Source: Opitutaceae bacterium | Lineage (GTDB): Bacteria > Verrucomicrobiota > Verrucomicrobiia > Opitutales > Opitutaceae | Assembly: GCA_030693515.1 (NCBI GenBank) | Contig: JAUYAK010000122.1 | Span: 1 to 32,962, forward strand | Length of the DNA: 32,962 nucleotides | Direction of reading: 5' to 3' | Shown: piece by piece, positions 10,956-31,409 of the stretch | Layout: every line of letters begins with the position of its first letter | How positions within the stretch are numbered: position 1 is the stretch's first letter | Translations under genes and position numbers: made by a program | Notes under the pieces: model-generated | What the model was told of the DNA's origin: nothing | Database searches by the model: none | The model's input: the letters and a program-made list of their open reading frames with translations, nothing else

Positions 10956-11024
10956 GTAGGGCGGGTCTGTGACCCGCCTTCGAATACTCAATGTGCGAAA
11001 GGGCGGGTCGAAGCCCCGCTCTAC
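10956..11024. repeat. REPIN, second full copy of family A
   Basis: Left arm: GTAG (10956-10959), GGGCGGGTC, loop TGT, GACCCGCC (10971-10978). Right arm: GGGCGGGTC (11001-11009), loop GAA, GCCCCGCTC, ending CTAC (11021-11024), so the right arm has two changes that weaken its stem. The spacer TTCGAATACTCAATGTGCGA followed by AA is homologous to the spacer of the element at 1535. CAAAGTAG reads on the minus strand at 11028-11021. The GTAG of this arm contains the TAG stop of the small membrane protein gene. Confidence 0.85.
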
Positions 11025-18914: not shown

Positions 18915-18966
18915 ATCAGGCCGGGGCAGCTTGCAGAGATGGCTCGCGTCTTCATTCTTCCCGTTC

Positions 18967-19533
18967 ATGCCCACTCCTCCCCGCATCCTCGCCTTCTCCG
19001 GTAGCGCCCGTCGCGAATCGCTCAACGCCCGCTTGCTCGCCGCCGTCGTGACCGCCGTGCGCGGCGCGGGCGCAGAGGTGACGATCGTCGATCTGCGCGA
19101 ACTGGCTCTGCCGCTTTACGACGGCGATCTTGAGGACAGCGCGGGTCTGCCGGCCGGCGCACAGAAACTCGTCGATGCGATCAACGCTCATGGCGGACTG
19201 CTCATCGCTTCGCCGGAATACAACTCCCAGATCACGCCGCTGCTGAAGAACGCCATCGATTGGTGCACGCGCGCGGACGAGAATCCGTTTCGTGGCAAGG
19301 TGGCCGCGGTGGTCTCGGCCTCGCCGGGCGCGTTTGGCGGCATCCGCTCGATGACGCTTGCGCGCCAGCTTCTCACACACCTCGGCTGCCACGTGATTCC
19401 TGCGCAGTGCGTGCTGCCGCAAGCGGACAAGGCCTTCGACGAGCACGGCGCGCTCAAGGACGACCGGCCGCGCAAGGCCGCGCAGGCGGTCGCGACGGAG
19501 CTGGTGCGCGTGACGACGCGGCTCGCGGGCTGA
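18967..19533 (+). CDS. NADPH-dependent FMN reductase family protein
   Basis: A 188-residue flavodoxin-like oxidoreductase. The FMN phosphate loop is SGSARRESLNARL (about residues 11-23) and the second flavin-binding segment is SPEYNSQITPLLKNAIDW (about 79-96), both signatures of the FMN_red (chromate/azo/quinone reductase) family. The start at 18967 directly precedes the first beta strand (RILAFSGS). It lies alone between two repeat regions, so its partner or regulator is not evident. It could be a quinone or flavin reductase in redox defence; the substrate cannot be deduced. Confidence 0.88.
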   Translation: MPTPPRILAFSGSARRESLNARLLAAVVTAVRGAGAEVTIVDLRELALPLYDGDLEDSAGLPAGAQKLVDAINAHGGLLIASPEYNSQITPLLKNAIDWCTRADENPFRGKVAAVVSASPGAFGGIRSMTLARQLLTHLGCHVIPAQCVLPQADKAFDEHGALKDDRPRKAAQAVATELVRVTTRLAG

Positions 19534-19610
19534 GTGGCGGCGACGTGTGCGTAGCGGCGGGCGACTGGAAGTGCTCGCAAAGCGAAACGGAAAGCGCGCG
19601 GAGTGCGCTT

Positions 19611-19670
19611 GGGCGTCGAGCAAGCTCGAGCCCTACGAAATGCAGGGTAGGGCCTGAGCTTGCTCAGGCC
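19611..19670. repeat. Left REP pair flanking the RAYT gene
   Basis: Two hairpins back to back: the first, read on the minus strand, is CGTAGGGCTCGAGCTTGCTC then GACGCCC; the second, at 19648-19670, is GTAGGGCCTGAGCTTGCTCA then GGCC. Both are GTAG plus a stem with apex CTTG. The two GTAG tags face each other across GAAATGCAGG (CTAC at 19632-19635 and GTAG at 19647-19650). The 60-bp unit returns after the transposase gene with one difference (G to C just before the second GTAG). It ends 52 bp before the RAYT start. Confidence 0.92.
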
Positions 19671-19722
19671 TGCTTCGAAATCGCGCTTGCCGCTGCGCAG
19701 CGACTCGTGACATGCCGCGTTC

Positions 19723-20289
19723 GTGTCCACGTCCTCCTTCAGCAAAAATCCCCGGCGCCAAACCGCCGAACTGCGCAAGGGCCGGCTCTCGCTCGTGGGC
19801 GCTCGATATTTCGTCACGTTTGCGACGGCTCGCCGGGCTTCGGCGCTCGCTTCGCCATCGGCAATCGCAGCCGCACACTTGGTGTGCCAACGGCTCGTGG
19901 ACGACTGCGACATCACCGCACTCACGGCCACGATCATGCCCGACCATGTGCATCTGCTCTTTGAACTCGGCGGCACGCTCACGCTCGACCGCGTCGTCGC
20001 GAAATGGCGGACACTCGTTCGTCGCGCCGTGCCGGGCCTCACGTGGCAGGCAAATTTCTTTGAGCACCGTTTGAGCGCTGACGAGTTGAGCGAGCCCTAC
20101 GCGTGGTGTGTGTTCATGAACCCGTATCGTGCGGGTTTGATCAGATGCGACGCGCTGTGGCCCGGCTGGTGGACCGACGGTGCGGTGTCACATGAGTTTC
20201 TCGCGCTGGCTCGACCGGGGCCGTGTCCGCAGCCGGAGTGGCTGGACCAAGTGGACGAACGGGCGCGGGGATTGATTTTGGGCGAGTGA
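19723..20289 (+). CDS. REP-associated tyrosine transposase (RAYT, Y1-type)
   Basis: A 188-residue single-strand DNA transposase-like protein of the IS200/RAYT group. It has GARYFVTFAT (26-35) as the first strand, the HUH motif MPDHVHLLFEL (72-82; H75 and H77), WQANFFEHRLS (108-118) and the family's terminal motif YAWCVFMNPYRAGLI (126-140). RAYTs cut single-stranded REP DNA at a GTAG-tagged hairpin; the gene sits between two nearly identical REP pairs, as expected. In RAYTs I know, the position five residues before the NP proline (pattern YIxxNPxRAGL) is the catalytic Tyr; here it is Cys129, and the nearest Tyr is Tyr126, three residues earlier. The start is GTG at 19723, since no ATG fits. 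It lacks transposon ends of its own, as usual for RAYTs. Confidence 0.85.
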   Translation: MSTSSFSKNPRRQTAELRKGRLSLVGARYFVTFATARRASALASPSAIAAAHLVCQRLVDDCDITALTATIMPDHVHLLFELGGTLTLDRVVAKWRTLVRRAVPGLTWQANFFEHRLSADELSEPYAWCVFMNPYRAGLIRCDALWPGWWTDGAVSHEFLALARPGPCPQPEWLDQVDERARGLILGE

Positions 20290-20295
20290 GGGGAG

Positions 20296-20395
20296 GGGCG
20301 TCGAGCAAGCTCGAGCCCTACGAAATGCAGCGTAGGGCCTGAGCTTGCTCAGGCCTTTGGGCTAATTCGTATAACGGCCTCAGCAAGCTGAGGCC
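20296..20395. repeat. Right REP pair of the RAYT gene plus a third hairpin
   Basis: 20296-20355 repeats the 60-bp left unit with a single mismatch, in the same orientation, starting 6 bp after the transposase stop. A third hairpin at 20376-20395, GGCCTCAGC-AA-GCTGAGGCC, is a variant of the second arm (GGCCTGAGC-TT-GCTCAGGCC) read in the opposite direction; the third stem pair is exchanged on both sides so pairing is kept. It has no GTAG next to it. This block occupies the whole gap to the end of thrS. Confidence 0.9.
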
Positions 20396-20405
20396 CGCAA
20401 ACAAA

Positions 20406-22334
20406 TCAGGCTCCCGCGGTCGCCGCCTTTTTCTTCTCCGGCAGCGCGCGCGTCGCGACCTCGTGCTTCAGCTTCGCGAGGTAGGCGTCGGCGCTCATCA
20501 CGCCTTCGTCGCCGCGGGCGCGGCTGCGGACGGAGACGTTGCCGGCCTCGGCTTCCTTGTGGCCGATGACGAGCGTGTAGGGGATCTTGTCGAGCTCGGC
20601 GCGGCGGATCTTGGCGCCGAGTTTGTCGGAGTGCTCGTCAATCGTCGCCCGGAGGCCCTCGGCCTTCAGGCGGGTGAGGTAGGCGCGGGCGTAATCGTTC
20701 AGCTTGTCGCTGATGGGGACGAGGCGCACCTGCTCGGGCGCGAGCCACGCGGGGAAGTCGCCGCCGAAATGCTCGATGAGCACGCCGCAGAAACGCTCCA
20801 TCGAGCCGAAGGGCGCACGGTGGATCATCACGGGGCGGTGCGCCTGGTTGTCGGAGCCGATGTAGCTGAGGTCGAAGCGCACGGGGAGCACGTAGTCCAC
20901 CTGCACGGTGCCGAGCTGCCACTCGCGGCCGATCACATCCTTGATCACGAAGTCGATCTTCGGGCCGTAGAACGCGGCCTCGCCGGGCTCTTCGGTGAAG
21001 GGCACGCCGAGGGTCTTCGCGGCCTCGCGGCACGCGGACTCGGCGGCATCCCACTTCGCGGGATCGCCGGTGAACTTGGTGCTGTCGGGATCGCGCAGGC
21101 CGACGCGCACGCGATAGTCGCTCATGCCGAGCGTCGTCAGCACCGTTTTCACGAGCGAGAGGCAGCCGAGCACTTCTTCCGCGACCTGCGCCTCGGTGCA
21201 GAAGAGATGCGCGTCGTCCTGCGTGAAGCCACGGACGCGCGTCATGCCGTTGAGCTCGCCGCTCTGCTCCCAGCGATAGACGGTGCCAAACTCCGCGAGC
21301 CGCACCGGCAGGTCGCGATACGAGTGCGGCTGCGAGGCGAAGATCTTGATGTGGTGCGGGCAGTTCATCGGCTTCAGCATGAAGCCGTCGAGGAGCTTGG
21401 TCGGGTCCATCACCCGGTCCTGCGCGATGACTTCCTTGCCCGCGCGCCGGTTGATCTCGTCGGCGAACTGCTGGGTGACGCCCTCGAGCCGCGCCGTGAG
21501 ATCGGCGCACGAGCAGCCCTCGGTCGCGGCCTGCGCGAGCGCCTCGGGCTCGGCAAACGCGGTGAACTGCGACTCCTTGTAGTAGGGGAAGTGGCCGCTG
21601 GTTTTGTAGAGCGTGAGCTTGCCAATGTGCGGCGTGAAGACCTGCGAGTAGCCCTGCTTGCGCAGCTCGCCGCCGATGAAGTCCTGCAACTCCTGGCGCA
21701 CGATCGAGCCGTTGGGCGTCCAGAGGATCAGGCCCTGGCCGACATCCTCATCGACGTGGAAAAGCTTCAGCTCCTTGCCGAGCTTGCGGTGATCGCGGGC
21801 CTTGGCCTGCTCCATGCGGTCGAGGTGCTGCGCGAGCTCCTCCTTCGTGGGAAACGCCGTGCCGTAGATGCGCTGGAGCTGCTTGTTCTTCTCGTCGCCG
21901 CGGTGATACGCGCCAGCGATGGAGAGGAGCTTGAACGCCTTCAGCTTCGACGTATAGCGGACGTGCGTGCCCGCGCAGAGGTCGGTGAATTCGCCGTTGG
22001 TGTAGAACGAAATTTTTTCGTCGGCCGGGATGTCCGCGAGGCGGCCCAGCTTGTAGCGCTCCTGCTTCATCTGCGTGATGAGGGCGATGGCCTCGTCGCG
22101 GGAGACTTCCTTGCGGTCGAAGCGCTGGTTCTCCTCGGCGATCTTCTTCATCTCGGCCTCGAGCTTCGCGAGATCGTCGAGCGTGAGTTTGTGCTCCAGA
22201 TCGAGGTCGTAATAGAAGCCGGTGTCCGTGGGCGGGCCGATGTCGAGCTTGGCGTCGGGAAAGACGCGGAGGATGGCGGTCGCCAGCACGTGCGAGCACG
22301 AGTGGCGGAGTTCTTCGAGCGGAGTCATCGGCAT
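20406..22334 (-). CDS. thrS: Threonyl-tRNA synthetase lacking the TGS domain
   Basis: A 642-residue class II synthetase charging tRNA-Thr. The editing domain starts almost at residue 1: H11-SCS-H15 and C120-AGT-H124 are the four catalytic-site residues of the N2 domain that hydrolyses Ser-tRNA-Thr. The usual ubiquitin-like N-terminal TGS domain (about 60 residues) is absent. The catalytic core has the motif 1 region, NCPHH (Zn ligand C325), motif 2 (GTVYRWEQSGELNGMTRVRG) and motif 3 (HRAPFGSMERF), followed by the anticodon domain (VRLVPISDKLNDYA on). An extra segment of about 50 residues (260-315, with EGCSCADLTARLEGVTQQF and ending before VMDPTKLLDGFMLKPMN) lies between the YKESQF strand and LKPMNCP. 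It follows cysS on the same strand. Confidence 0.95.
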   Translation of the reverse strand: MPMTPLEELRHSCSHVLATAILRVFPDAKLDIGPPTDTGFYYDLDLEHKLTLDDLAKLEAEMKKIAEENQRFDRKEVSRDEAIALITQMKQERYKLGRLADIPADEKISFYTNGEFTDLCAGTHVRYTSKLKAFKLLSIAGAYHRGDEKNKQLQRIYGTAFPTKEELAQHLDRMEQAKARDHRKLGKELKLFHVDEDVGQGLILWTPNGSIVRQELQDFIGGELRKQGYSQVFTPHIGKLTLYKTSGHFPYYKESQFTAFAEPEALAQAATEGCSCADLTARLEGVTQQFADEINRRAGKEVIAQDRVMDPTKLLDGFMLKPMNCPHHIKIFASQPHSYRDLPVRLAEFGTVYRWEQSGELNGMTRVRGFTQDDAHLFCTEAQVAEEVLGCLSLVKTVLTTLGMSDYRVRVGLRDPDSTKFTGDPAKWDAAESACREAAKTLGVPFTEEPGEAAFYGPKIDFVIKDVIGREWQLGTVQVDYVLPVRFDLSYIGSDNQAHRPVMIHRAPFGSMERFCGVLIEHFGGDFPAWLAPEQVRLVPISDKLNDYARAYLTRLKAEGLRATIDEHSDKLGAKIRRAELDKIPYTLVIGHKEAEAGNVSVRSRARGDEGVMSADAYLAKLKHEVATRALPEKKKAATAGA

Positions 22335-23946: not shown

Positions 23947-24275
23947 GGAGCGGAAGTGATCGGCGAAAAACGAAGGGGGAGCGCTATCAGGTTTTCCGCC
24001 GCGGCGGAAAGGTGTTTTTGCGGCGTCAACCGAAGGTTTGCCGCGCCCGGCTCCACCGGGCTCGCAATGACAACGAAAAGGGGAGCAGGTCGCCACTCCG
24101 AACCGAGGCGGATGAATCATTCAAACCGGCCCGGACGCCCGTGGAGCAAGGCGTGCCTTCAAAAGGCCGAATTTCGCCCTATCGAGTTCGCGTAGGTCAG
24201 CTCGCTTGCGAGCGCGGATTGGGCGCGCGCAAGCGCGCTGGCCTACTCAAACGCCATTTTGAAAACACGTCCCGA
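23947..24275. other. Intergenic region rich in palindromes upstream of cysS
   Basis: This 329-bp gap holds no gene I can support. Seen in it are an 18-base perfect palindrome TTTCCGCCGCGGCGGAAA (23993-24010), 47 bp upstream of the cysS start; a hairpin GCCCGG-CTCCA-CCGGGC (24045-24061) which on the minus strand follows GTCATTGCGA, a context common in dispersed repeats of other genomes; and the REPIN at 24192-24246. The palindrome could be an operator or a repeat; nothing distinguishes these. Confidence 0.6.
24192..24246. repeat. REPIN with CTTG-apex hairpins and outward GTAG tags
   Basis: Left arm: GTAG (24192-24195), GTCA, then GCTCGC-TT-GCGAGC (24200-24213). Right arm, read on the minus strand from 24246: GTAGGCCAGCGCGCTTGCGC then GCGCCC. 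The two arms share GTAGG-CAGC-CGCTTGCG-GCGC, with T/G and A/C exchanged at paired stem positions. GTAG tags are at the outer ends, the reverse of the arrangement beside the RAYT gene. Confidence 0.85.
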
Positions 24276-26257: not shown

Positions 26258-27268
26258 ATGGCCGATTCCCACCCTCTCGACCTCGCGCAGCGTCCGCGCC
26301 GCCTCCGCCGCACCGCCAGTCTGCGGGCCATGACGGAGGAGACCGTGCTGCGACCGGCGGATTTCATCGCCCCGCTTTTCGTGGTCGAAGGCCGCGCCGC
26401 GCCCGATCCGATTGCGTCGATGCCGGGGGTGTTTCGCCTGAACCTCGCGGACCTCGTGAAAGAGTGCCGCGCGCTGCACAAACTCGGCGTGCCGGCCGTG
26501 GCGCTCTTTCCCAAGCTCGATCCGAAACTGAAGGACGACGAAGGCACGCAGGCACTCAACGAAGACACGCTGGTGCTCCGCGCGGTGCGCGCCGTGAAAA
26601 AAGCCCTCCCGGAGCTGACCGTCATCACCGATGTCGCGCTCGATCCCTACACCAGCCACGGGCACGACGGCGTGCTCACGCCCGCGCGCGACGATGTGGC
26701 GAACGATCGCACGGTCGCGCTCCTGGGCCGCATGGCGGTCCTGCAGGCGCGGGCCGGCGTCGATCTCGTGGCGCCGAGCGACATGATGGACGGCCGCGTG
26801 GGCGCGATTCGTCGCGCGCTGGATGCGGCGGGTTTTGCCGGCACGGGGATCCTCGCCTACTCGGCGAAATACAATTCGGCCTACTACGGGCCGTTTCGCG
26901 ACGCGGTCGGCAGTGCGCAGGCGGCGGGCACGCGGCTGCTCAGCAAGGCGACCTATCAGATGAATCCGGCCAACCGCCGCGAGGCGCTCCACGAGGCTGC
27001 GCTGGATGACGCCGAGGGCGCGGACATCCTGATGGTCAAACCCGCCGGCCCGTATCTCGACATCATCCGCGAGCTGCGCGGCGCGACGGCCAAGCCGATC
27101 GCGGCCTACCAAGTCTCCGGCGAATACGCCCAGATCCACGCCGCCGCGAAGCTCGGCTGGCTCGACCTCGCCCGCTGCCGGCACGAATCGCTGGTCGCGA
27201 TCAAGCGCGCGGGCGCGGACTTGATCCTCACTTATTTCGCAAAGGACATGGCCGCAGCGCTGGGCTAG
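26258..27268 (+). CDS. hemB: Delta-aminolevulinic acid dehydratase (porphobilinogen synthase)
   Basis: A 336-residue enzyme condensing two 5-aminolevulinate molecules to porphobilinogen in haem synthesis. Both Schiff-base lysines are visible, in YSAKYNSAYYGPFR and ILMVKPAGPYLD. The metal segment reads DVALDPYTSHGHDG, with Asp/Ala where zinc enzymes have Cys (DVCLCxYTSHGHCG), so this is the Asp-rich, magnesium-type form rather than the zinc form. The N-terminal arm (RPRRLRRTASLRAM) is typical. It diverges from the esterase gene across 129 bp and is followed by a REP element and a strong bidirectional terminator. Confidence 0.96.
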   Translation: MADSHPLDLAQRPRRLRRTASLRAMTEETVLRPADFIAPLFVVEGRAAPDPIASMPGVFRLNLADLVKECRALHKLGVPAVALFPKLDPKLKDDEGTQALNEDTLVLRAVRAVKKALPELTVITDVALDPYTSHGHDGVLTPARDDVANDRTVALLGRMAVLQARAGVDLVAPSDMMDGRVGAIRRALDAAGFAGTGILAYSAKYNSAYYGPFRDAVGSAQAAGTRLLSKATYQMNPANRREALHEAALDDAEGADILMVKPAGPYLDIIRELRGATAKPIAAYQVSGEYAQIHAAAKLGWLDLARCRHESLVAIKRAGADLILTYFAKDMAAALG

Positions 27269-27375: not shown

Positions 27376-27422
27376 GTGGGAGCGACCTTGGTCGCGACCG
27401 TCGCGTGCAAGCACGCTCCCAC
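27376..27422. repeat. REPIN with GTGG tags (GTGGGAGCG family)
   Basis: Left arm: GTGGGAGCGACCTTGGTCGC (27376-27395) then GACC. Right arm inverted, reading on the minus strand from 27422: GTGGGAGCGTGCTTGCACGC then GACGG. Both keep GTGGGAGCG, a CTTG apex and CGCGAC, with the inner stem changed in pairs (AC/GT against TG/CA). TTTTT precedes the left tag, as at 31355. Confidence 0.85.
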
Positions 27423-31354: not shown

Positions 31355-31409
31355 GTGGGAGCGAGCTTGCTCGCGACTTTCCGGATGTCGCGAGCTAGCT
31401 CGCTCCCAC
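31355..31409. repeat. REPIN with GTGG tags, near-perfect inverted repeat
   Basis: Left arm 31355-31377 begins GTGGGAGCGAGCTTGCTCGC and ends GAC. The right arm (31387-31409), inverted, differs at one base of 23 (CTTG apex becomes CTAG). A 9-bp spacer separates them and TTTTT precedes the left tag. It belongs to the same family as the element at 27376. The motif is strikingly like the GTGGGAG-type REPs known from Pseudomonas. The rest of 31325-31485 has no gene. Confidence 0.9.

Follow-up and report, generated by a model that had tools for sequence, protein, structure and literature searches.

The RAYT locus described here is an ordinary REPtron in its anatomy, of a known kind, with a disabled-looking enzyme. 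In the reading that we consider probable, a RAYT was recently disabled within this REPtron, and the REPIN population that accompanies it is at least partly inherited. The locus lies in a window of 32,962 bases (the whole stretch of DNA analysed), which is the entire contig C70 of a 6.65 Mb genome in 130 contigs (G000). Its neighbours are an FMN reductase gene on the left (18931-19533, + strand) and thrS on the right (20406-22334, - strand). The features are as follows.

19551..19562, + strand: GTAGCGGCGGGC, probably the surviving left end of an older REPIN that belonged to another family
19612..19636, - strand: REP a, bulged type, with GTAG at its right end facing REP b (0 mismatches to the family pattern)
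19637..19646, no strand: junction linker a-b, GAAATGCAGG (searched with its flanks, two places in G000)
19647..19670, + strand: REP b, perfect-stem type, left end of the gene-enclosing REPIN (pattern match and folding)
19647..20321, no strand: enlarged REPIN of 675 bp, the GTAG-outside pair b...c with the RAYT gene inside (arm orientation)
19723..20289, + strand: RAYT gene, 188 aa, open frame (NF047646 61.6 bits, Y1_Tnp PF01797 26.7 bits)
19945..19953, + strand: HUH motif, H75 and H77 (both CAT codons)
20107..20109, + strand: codon 129, TGT, Cys at the catalytic tyrosine position, so that the Y---NP signature reads C---NP (alignments)
20297..20321, - strand: REP c, bulged type, right end of the gene-enclosing REPIN (pattern match and folding)
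20322..20331, no strand: junction linker c-d, GAAATGCAGC (one change relative to linker a-b)
20332..20355, + strand: REP d, perfect-stem type, left end of the next REPIN (pattern match and folding)
20376..20399, - strand: REP e, right end of the next REPIN, with the degenerate tag TGCG (folding)

The order from left to right is REP a, a 10-base linker, REP b, the RAYT gene, REP c, the linker with one change, REP d, and REP e. REPs d and e form an ordinary GTAG-outside pair, and REPs b and c form a GTAG-outside pair stretched over the gene. REP a is the right half of a leftward neighbour, whose left half was looked for and not found. The remnant at 19551 is of the family that stands beside a RAYT-like gene elsewhere in the genome (G000:C120). 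An Rfam scan of 19400-20600 gave no match at gathering scores.

An initial annotation had described the flanks of the gene as one 60-bp unit of two GTAG-tagged hairpins, present on both sides in direct orientation. This description is accurate: the unit stands at 19612-19671 and 20297-20356, identical at 59 of 60 positions, and one further base outward also matches at both flanks, giving a 61-bp pair identical at 60/61. The gaps between the gene and the units, 52 bp upstream and 6 bp downstream (the downstream unit counted from 20296), are likewise correct, and the third hairpin reported downstream is real (20376-20399), running in the opposite direction with the tag TGCG instead of GTAG.

When the hairpins were folded one by one as single-stranded DNA, the perfect-stem arm (19647-19671, copy 20332-20356) was more stable than its shuffles (z -3.55, with 0 of 200 as good), as was the third hairpin (z -2.81, 2/200). 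The bulged arm is unremarkable by itself (z -1.33, 22/200), and the entire 60-bp unit reaches z -5.23 (0/200). With up to three mismatches, the 19-base arm pattern has 104 matches in the genome, against 26 for a reversed control; 18 of the 104 are perfect, four of them at the RAYT locus. The arms of the flanking units belong to a real REP family. Pairing of neighbouring matches less than 200 bp apart, done on 100 listed matches of the 104, yielded 33 close pairs and left 34 matches unpaired. Many of these 34 have three mismatches and, given the control count, are likely to be chance. GTAG lies outside in 31 of the 33 pairs, which span 44-72 bp, and inside in two, which are exactly the two RAYT junctions.

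Alignment of the REPINs showed stems that are either perfect or bulged, with one of each in some pairs. The perfect type accounts for 43 of 80 collected arms, and in these the stem pair 9-20 is TA in 35 and CG in 8, pair 10-19 is GC in 30 and CG in 12, and pair 12-17 is GC in 34 and CG in 8, with one arm unpaired at each of the latter two. One complementary pair is thus replaced by another at three of the nine positions of the stem, in support of the hairpin being the conserved object. Seven REPINs of this family in the genome (L027, L098, L101, L105, L060, L112, and L113) lie within a longer repeated palindromic context, with CGCCCAAT... and TTTTGCATCTTG-like stretches on either side, which suggests a larger compound repeat.

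Since 31 of the 33 close pairs carry GTAG outside and the exceptions flank the RAYT gene, the 60-bp unit is best seen as a junction between repeat units and not as a unit that spreads. The linker with its flanks occurs at two places in G000, both of them RAYT junctions, and is absent from three relatives (G018, G016, and G001). The 60-bp GTAG-inside pair was therefore rejected as a mobile unit: none of the four genomes holds a further copy of the junction, and the dispersed form is the GTAG-outside pair. Of the refuting outcome named in the initial annotation, that the unit stands nowhere else in the genome, half came true: the junction is confined to this locus, but the two arms are widespread as REPIN halves. 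The earlier suggestion that 59/60 identity points to duplication or conversion holds in a local sense: because the linker and its flanks were found only at the two junctions, one of these was probably copied from the other. More generally, the pair found next to a RAYT need not be the mobile unit and may instead be a junction.

Direct repeats of compound REP units are a common frame for RAYTs. Flanks were compared at 84 of 88 surveyed RAYT loci, namely those with at least 150 bases on both sides, and upstream and downstream flanks matched at a score of at least 60 in direct orientation at 50 loci and in inverted orientation at nine. Mismatched flank pairs reached that score in one of 600 cases. 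The window locus ranks 28th by direct flank score. This agrees with the BIME-like flanks that are reported for one third of RAYTs in the text of PMC2817692. A rule that RAYTs lie inside REPINs was also tried and rejected: in a heuristic survey of the 88 loci, which are not independent and from which the duplicates L167 and L169 were left out, 19 lie inside, 25 between, and 25 are mixed, and 19 have no REPs detected on both sides.

Pairs of other families with GTAG or GTGG outside occur elsewhere in the window, as had been noted, and differ in this from the GTAG-inside units that flank the gene. There are five (1535-1610, 10956-11024, 24192-24246, 27376-27422, and 31355-31409), representing at least three other REP families, and the last is of the REP family that accompanies the RAYT at G000:C25. 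A poorly matched hit at 26798-26860 and a GTAG-inside hit at 2056-2171 look like chance. The same scan missed the RAYT-flanking pairs because their bulged arms fold at -6.5, above the -7 cut-off.

The gene is a RAYT by descent and sits among REPs of its own family, as proposed in the initial annotation. The match to NF047646 covers nearly the whole model at 61.6 bits, under the 80-bit cut-off, as are two paralogues that carry HUH and the tyrosine (C25, 76.3; C38, 78.9); the match to Y1_Tnp (PF01797) is above its cut-off of 23 at 26.7 bits. The HUH motif with H75 and H77, both encoded by CAT, is present as described, and both histidines are kept in 120 of 120 homologues (the best 120 of 194 found, the window protein included). 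An NPxRxG-type motif reads NPYRAG at 133-138, beside the tyrosine position, and T32 is nearly invariant in 32 aligned sequences; such a motif and an N-terminal threonine are named as RAYT features in the passages seen of PMC2817692, where the motif has L or V at the place that is Y135 in the clade of the window protein. Structure modelling predicts the REP-RAYT fold with high confidence.

The departure is at position 129, the counterpart in alignment of residue 115 in E. coli TnpA-REP (4er8). It is cysteine in the window protein and tyrosine in all 119 other homologues among the matches listed. Across the 88 surveyed RAYT loci it is tyrosine in 84, the other four being the window gene, one with methionine in a stop-bearing frame, and two that are truncated. 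Tyrosine-to-phenylalanine mutants of three RAYTs (Y115F, Y130F, and Y125F) gave no cleavage products in the experiments described in PMC8266576. At the 30 columns conserved in at least 95% of homologues, the tyrosine is the sole departure and the other 29 residues are kept, which fits a recent loss. The claims of an intact-looking REP mobilisation unit and of a current source are both unsupported, because the catalytic tyrosine is replaced by cysteine. What stands of the source-locus claim is that, among the 12 RAYT-like NF047646 matches in the genome, some of them pieces, this one alone has REPs of the family in its flanks (up to 1.5 kb each, less at contig ends). An open reading frame with an HUH motif is thus insufficient for calling a RAYT active.

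The gene had also been called single-copy, which is true in that the next best match in the genome is 37% identical, but the genome as a whole holds the 12 RAYT-like matches. The closest protein record (P0002, a sequence without genomic context) is 82% identical and keeps the tyrosine. In 252 genomes of the family, the best other homologue is 59% identical (G119), a contig search for close homologues gave 24 loci with a best identity of 39%, and the Opitutus terrae homologue Oter_2468 is 46% identical. The 59% homologue (L309, G119:C31:15303-15848) reads HVP for HVH and, judged from its sequence, appears to be another RAYT with a damaged-looking active site.

The position of the gene was compared among relatives of the genus by way of thrS, which was found at a strict cut-off in 25 of 27 genomes, with flanks of up to 1.5 kb that are shorter at contig ends. 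The thrS of G018 is 97% identical to that of G000, and that of G016 94%. Among the 25 thrS loci, an FMN reductase gene lies beside thrS only in G000, G018, and G016, and a RAYT gene in G000 alone. The intergenic site of G018 holds a full GTAG-outside pair of another family, GTAGCGGCGGGC...GCCCGCCGCTAC, whose left end also stands at 19551 in the window. RAYTs are described as single-copy and vertically inherited in the available text of PMC8049555, and a patchy distribution is described in that of PMC6006769; a thrS identity of 97% with no close RAYT in G018 is a misfit with vertical inheritance and fits better with a patchy distribution. At the position of the window's RAYT, G016 has MazE-like and PemK/MazF-like genes (L143:2250-2823). 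In some E. coli, a toxin/antitoxin operon replaces the REPtron, according to the part of PMC6006769 seen.

The REP family itself is kept in relatives. With up to two mismatches, the family pattern has 60 matches in G000 (3 for the control), 34 in G018 (2), 24 in G001 (4), and 11 in G016 (2). G017 has 17 (0), mostly of a related variant, and the other 22 genomes have 0 to 4. NF047646 matches in G018 (4), G016 (3), and G001 (8) include none with family REPs beside them. Two G018 loci (L246 and L256) have one family match or one pair about 1.2 kb from a RAYT-like match. A broken RAYT of G018 at C24:224785 was considered as a hidden cognate enzyme and rejected, its own flanks being of another family, GTAGGGGCGCGG....

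Of 30 REPIN sites in G000, 23 were located in G018, one was not located, and six were left out of the test; 12 of the 23 are shared and 11 are without a REPIN. Twenty REPIN loci were retrieved from G018, and ten of the 30 G000 loci match one of them over roughly 2 kb; at one of these ten sites, G018 retains a single recognisable arm. When 14 of the 20 unmatched loci were examined, the flanks of 13 were found in G018, two with a family pair and 11 without. At sites without a REPIN in G018, the flanks are too diverged for exact insertion boundaries. The 12 of 23 shared sites indicate that the REPIN population is at least partly older than the split between G000 and G018. Regardless of direction, the population has changed since that split, and in this two-genome comparison a REPIN present in G000 alone may have been lost from G018 and need not be a new insertion. 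At two orthologous sites (L023/L238 and L007/L224 in G000/G018), the arms differ in stem type between conserved flanks, as if arms had been exchanged. Together, the two genomes form a natural experiment on whether REPINs persist after losing their enzyme: in G000 the enzyme is apparently disabled by a missense change, in G018 no cognate gene was found, and the family is kept in both.

When a RAYT is lost or inactivated, its REPs cease to multiply and gradually fade, in the argument made in PMC3686654 as far as it was available, and the RAYT locus fits an early stage of such fading. Tag counts give no clear sign of decay in the family: the partner-arm tag is intact in 25 of 41 dimers of the window RAYT's family, against 17 of 18 in the C25 family, whose RAYT keeps the tyrosine (Fisher p 0.011), and 12 of 18 in the C38 family, whose RAYT also keeps it (p 0.77).

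The proposed history would be as follows. The REPtron comprises a RAYT inside an enlarged GTAG-outside REPIN, within a short BIME-like array in which alternating REPs follow one another in tandem and share one linker; the gene probably came into this array by tandem duplication or conversion of the junction unit. The ancestral enzyme would have bound single-stranded GTAG hairpins, cut beside them with its tyrosine, and helped REPINs to copy elsewhere. RAYTs cut at CT dinucleotides (in one case also CA) near hairpins by a phosphotyrosine step and yield cut and rejoined REP DNA, in the assays reported in the part of PMC8266576 seen. The window RAYT appears to have lost the tyrosine (C129) and kept the HUH histidines, the asparagine after the tyrosine position, and the rest of the fold. 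Cysteine at position 129 should block the phosphotyrosine step, and the protein is predicted to bind REPs at most, without cutting. The loss of activity, its recency, the direction of gain or loss, and the copying mechanism are what we infer from these comparisons. Because the protein is without its cutting tyrosine, the present REPIN copies are more likely to be inherited leftovers than current output, and the population derives at least in good part from an ancestor common to the sister species.

It is rather unlikely that the window RAYT is active and a present source of REPINs, with C129 being an assembly error, a minority allele, or a change rescued by Y126. C129 is one base in a 130-contig assembly and might reflect an error or strain mixture. 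Y126 might substitute for the missing tyrosine: it precedes C129 by three residues, both being on one predicted helix (124-136), and position 126 is Tyr in 91, Phe in 28, and Cys in one of 120 aligned proteins (the window one included). The full open frame, the other 29 highly conserved columns, the sole presence of family REPs in its flanks among the 12 RAYT-like matches, and the still common perfect arm matches (18/104, four at the locus) agree with activity. These points are countered by the tyrosine of all 119 other homologues among the matches listed, by the loss of cleavage in the phenylalanine mutants of three RAYTs in the results seen from PMC8266576, and by G018, which retains the family with no cognate RAYT found there.

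The same retention, with 34 family matches in G018, can be turned into an argument that the family is copied in trans by another RAYT of the genome and that the state of the window gene matters little. The 12 NF047646 matches include candidates, as C25 and C38, of four other RAYTs aligned, keep HUH and the tyrosine in stop-free frames. However, REPs of other families stand beside the RAYTs at C25, C38, C120, C56, and C6, and one REP family per RAYT is reported in the sections seen of PMC6006769, which makes this quite improbable. The lost tyrosine might also mark a cutting-dead RAYT that was repurposed and kept as a REP-binding regulator, for which nuclease-dead transposon proteins turned regulators are a counterpart. 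The catalytic residue is the sole departure among the 30 conserved columns, the fold is predicted with high confidence, and RAYTs acting as transcription factors on REPINs are a speculation voiced in PMC8049555, in the part available. If this were so, a dead RAYT would still recognise hairpins genome-wide and act there on expression or DNA structure. We regard it as very improbable, given that there is no second full-frame tyrosine loss, the other homologues among the matches listed keeping theirs, and that a single sequence cannot show whether selection acted once the tyrosine was gone. A recently disabled RAYT with an at least partly inherited REPIN population remains the preferred reading.

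A separate observation concerns RAYTs within essential enzymes. At G000:C44:25660-26085 (L320:1039-4401), the reading frame of alanyl-tRNA synthetase contains a complete RAYT, in frame, that scores above the NF047646 cut-off. The frame of 1,120 aa has PF01411 at 27-447 and Y1_Tnp at 482-567, followed by tRNA_SAD and DHHA1, and the embedded RAYT has HUH and the tyrosine. A search with the embedded region among proteins of similar length matched 1,792 of 3,317 candidates at E <=0.001, a count of sequence matches that does not imply an embedded RAYT in all of them. In the best 120 of the 1,792, precomputed domains and source names point to alanyl- and threonyl-tRNA synthetases, methionine synthase, and RecG-like proteins as hosts; further host parts among the matches listed are presumably DNA polymerase III alpha-like, going by their domain numbers. 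In a motif scan, an HUH-like motif and [Y/F]xxxNP stood at the right spacing in 106 of these 120, with tyrosine in 106/106, and the proteins come from Verrucomicrobiota-type organisms where the source names one. Alanyl-tRNA synthetase appears to have at least two RAYT insertion places. Nothing on RAYTs inside this enzyme was found in the open-licence literature searched. Such in-frame RAYTs may matter more than the disabled one of the window.

Among known systems, IS200/IS605 elements (IS608 and ISDra2) differ from the window unit, which has a single copy in the genome and shows no sign of moving as a whole. Multicopy mobility of that type was not seen, and the RAYT unit is also missing at the corresponding site of G018 and G016. 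The window RAYT is also unlike RAYTs known from the accounts available in that cysteine replaces its catalytic tyrosine while the frame is otherwise full; the RAYT pseudogenes described in the part of PMC3686654 seen carry a nonsense mutation, frameshift, or deletion instead. No RAYT without the tyrosine in a full frame was found described in the portions available of the open-licence literature searched.

The dispersed family resembles the REPINs of PMC3116915, going by the text available, in that an inverted REP doublet is the dispersed unit, and differs in combining bulged and perfect arms in pairs beside perfect pairs and in one enlarged copy that encloses the RAYT. Its outside tags correspond to the HH dimer in the terms used in the section seen of PMC3733652. 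The same source describes, for Opitutus terrae of the same family-level group, GTAG families, HH and TT dimers, and GTGG variants, a likeness drawn by description. The closest system is the REPtron/RAYT, as portrayed in the parts available of PMC2817692, PMC3733652, and PMC6006769. It shares with the window an HUH Y1 fold, inverted GTAG-hairpin flanks, REPs throughout the genome, BIME-like flanks, and an own REP family for each RAYT, and a patchy distribution and gene loss are described for it. Like a REPtron, the window gene is flanked by two inverted palindromic REPs tagged with GT(A/G)G, namely REPs b and c, and its cognate REPs are dispersed in the genome (104 matches against 26 for the control).
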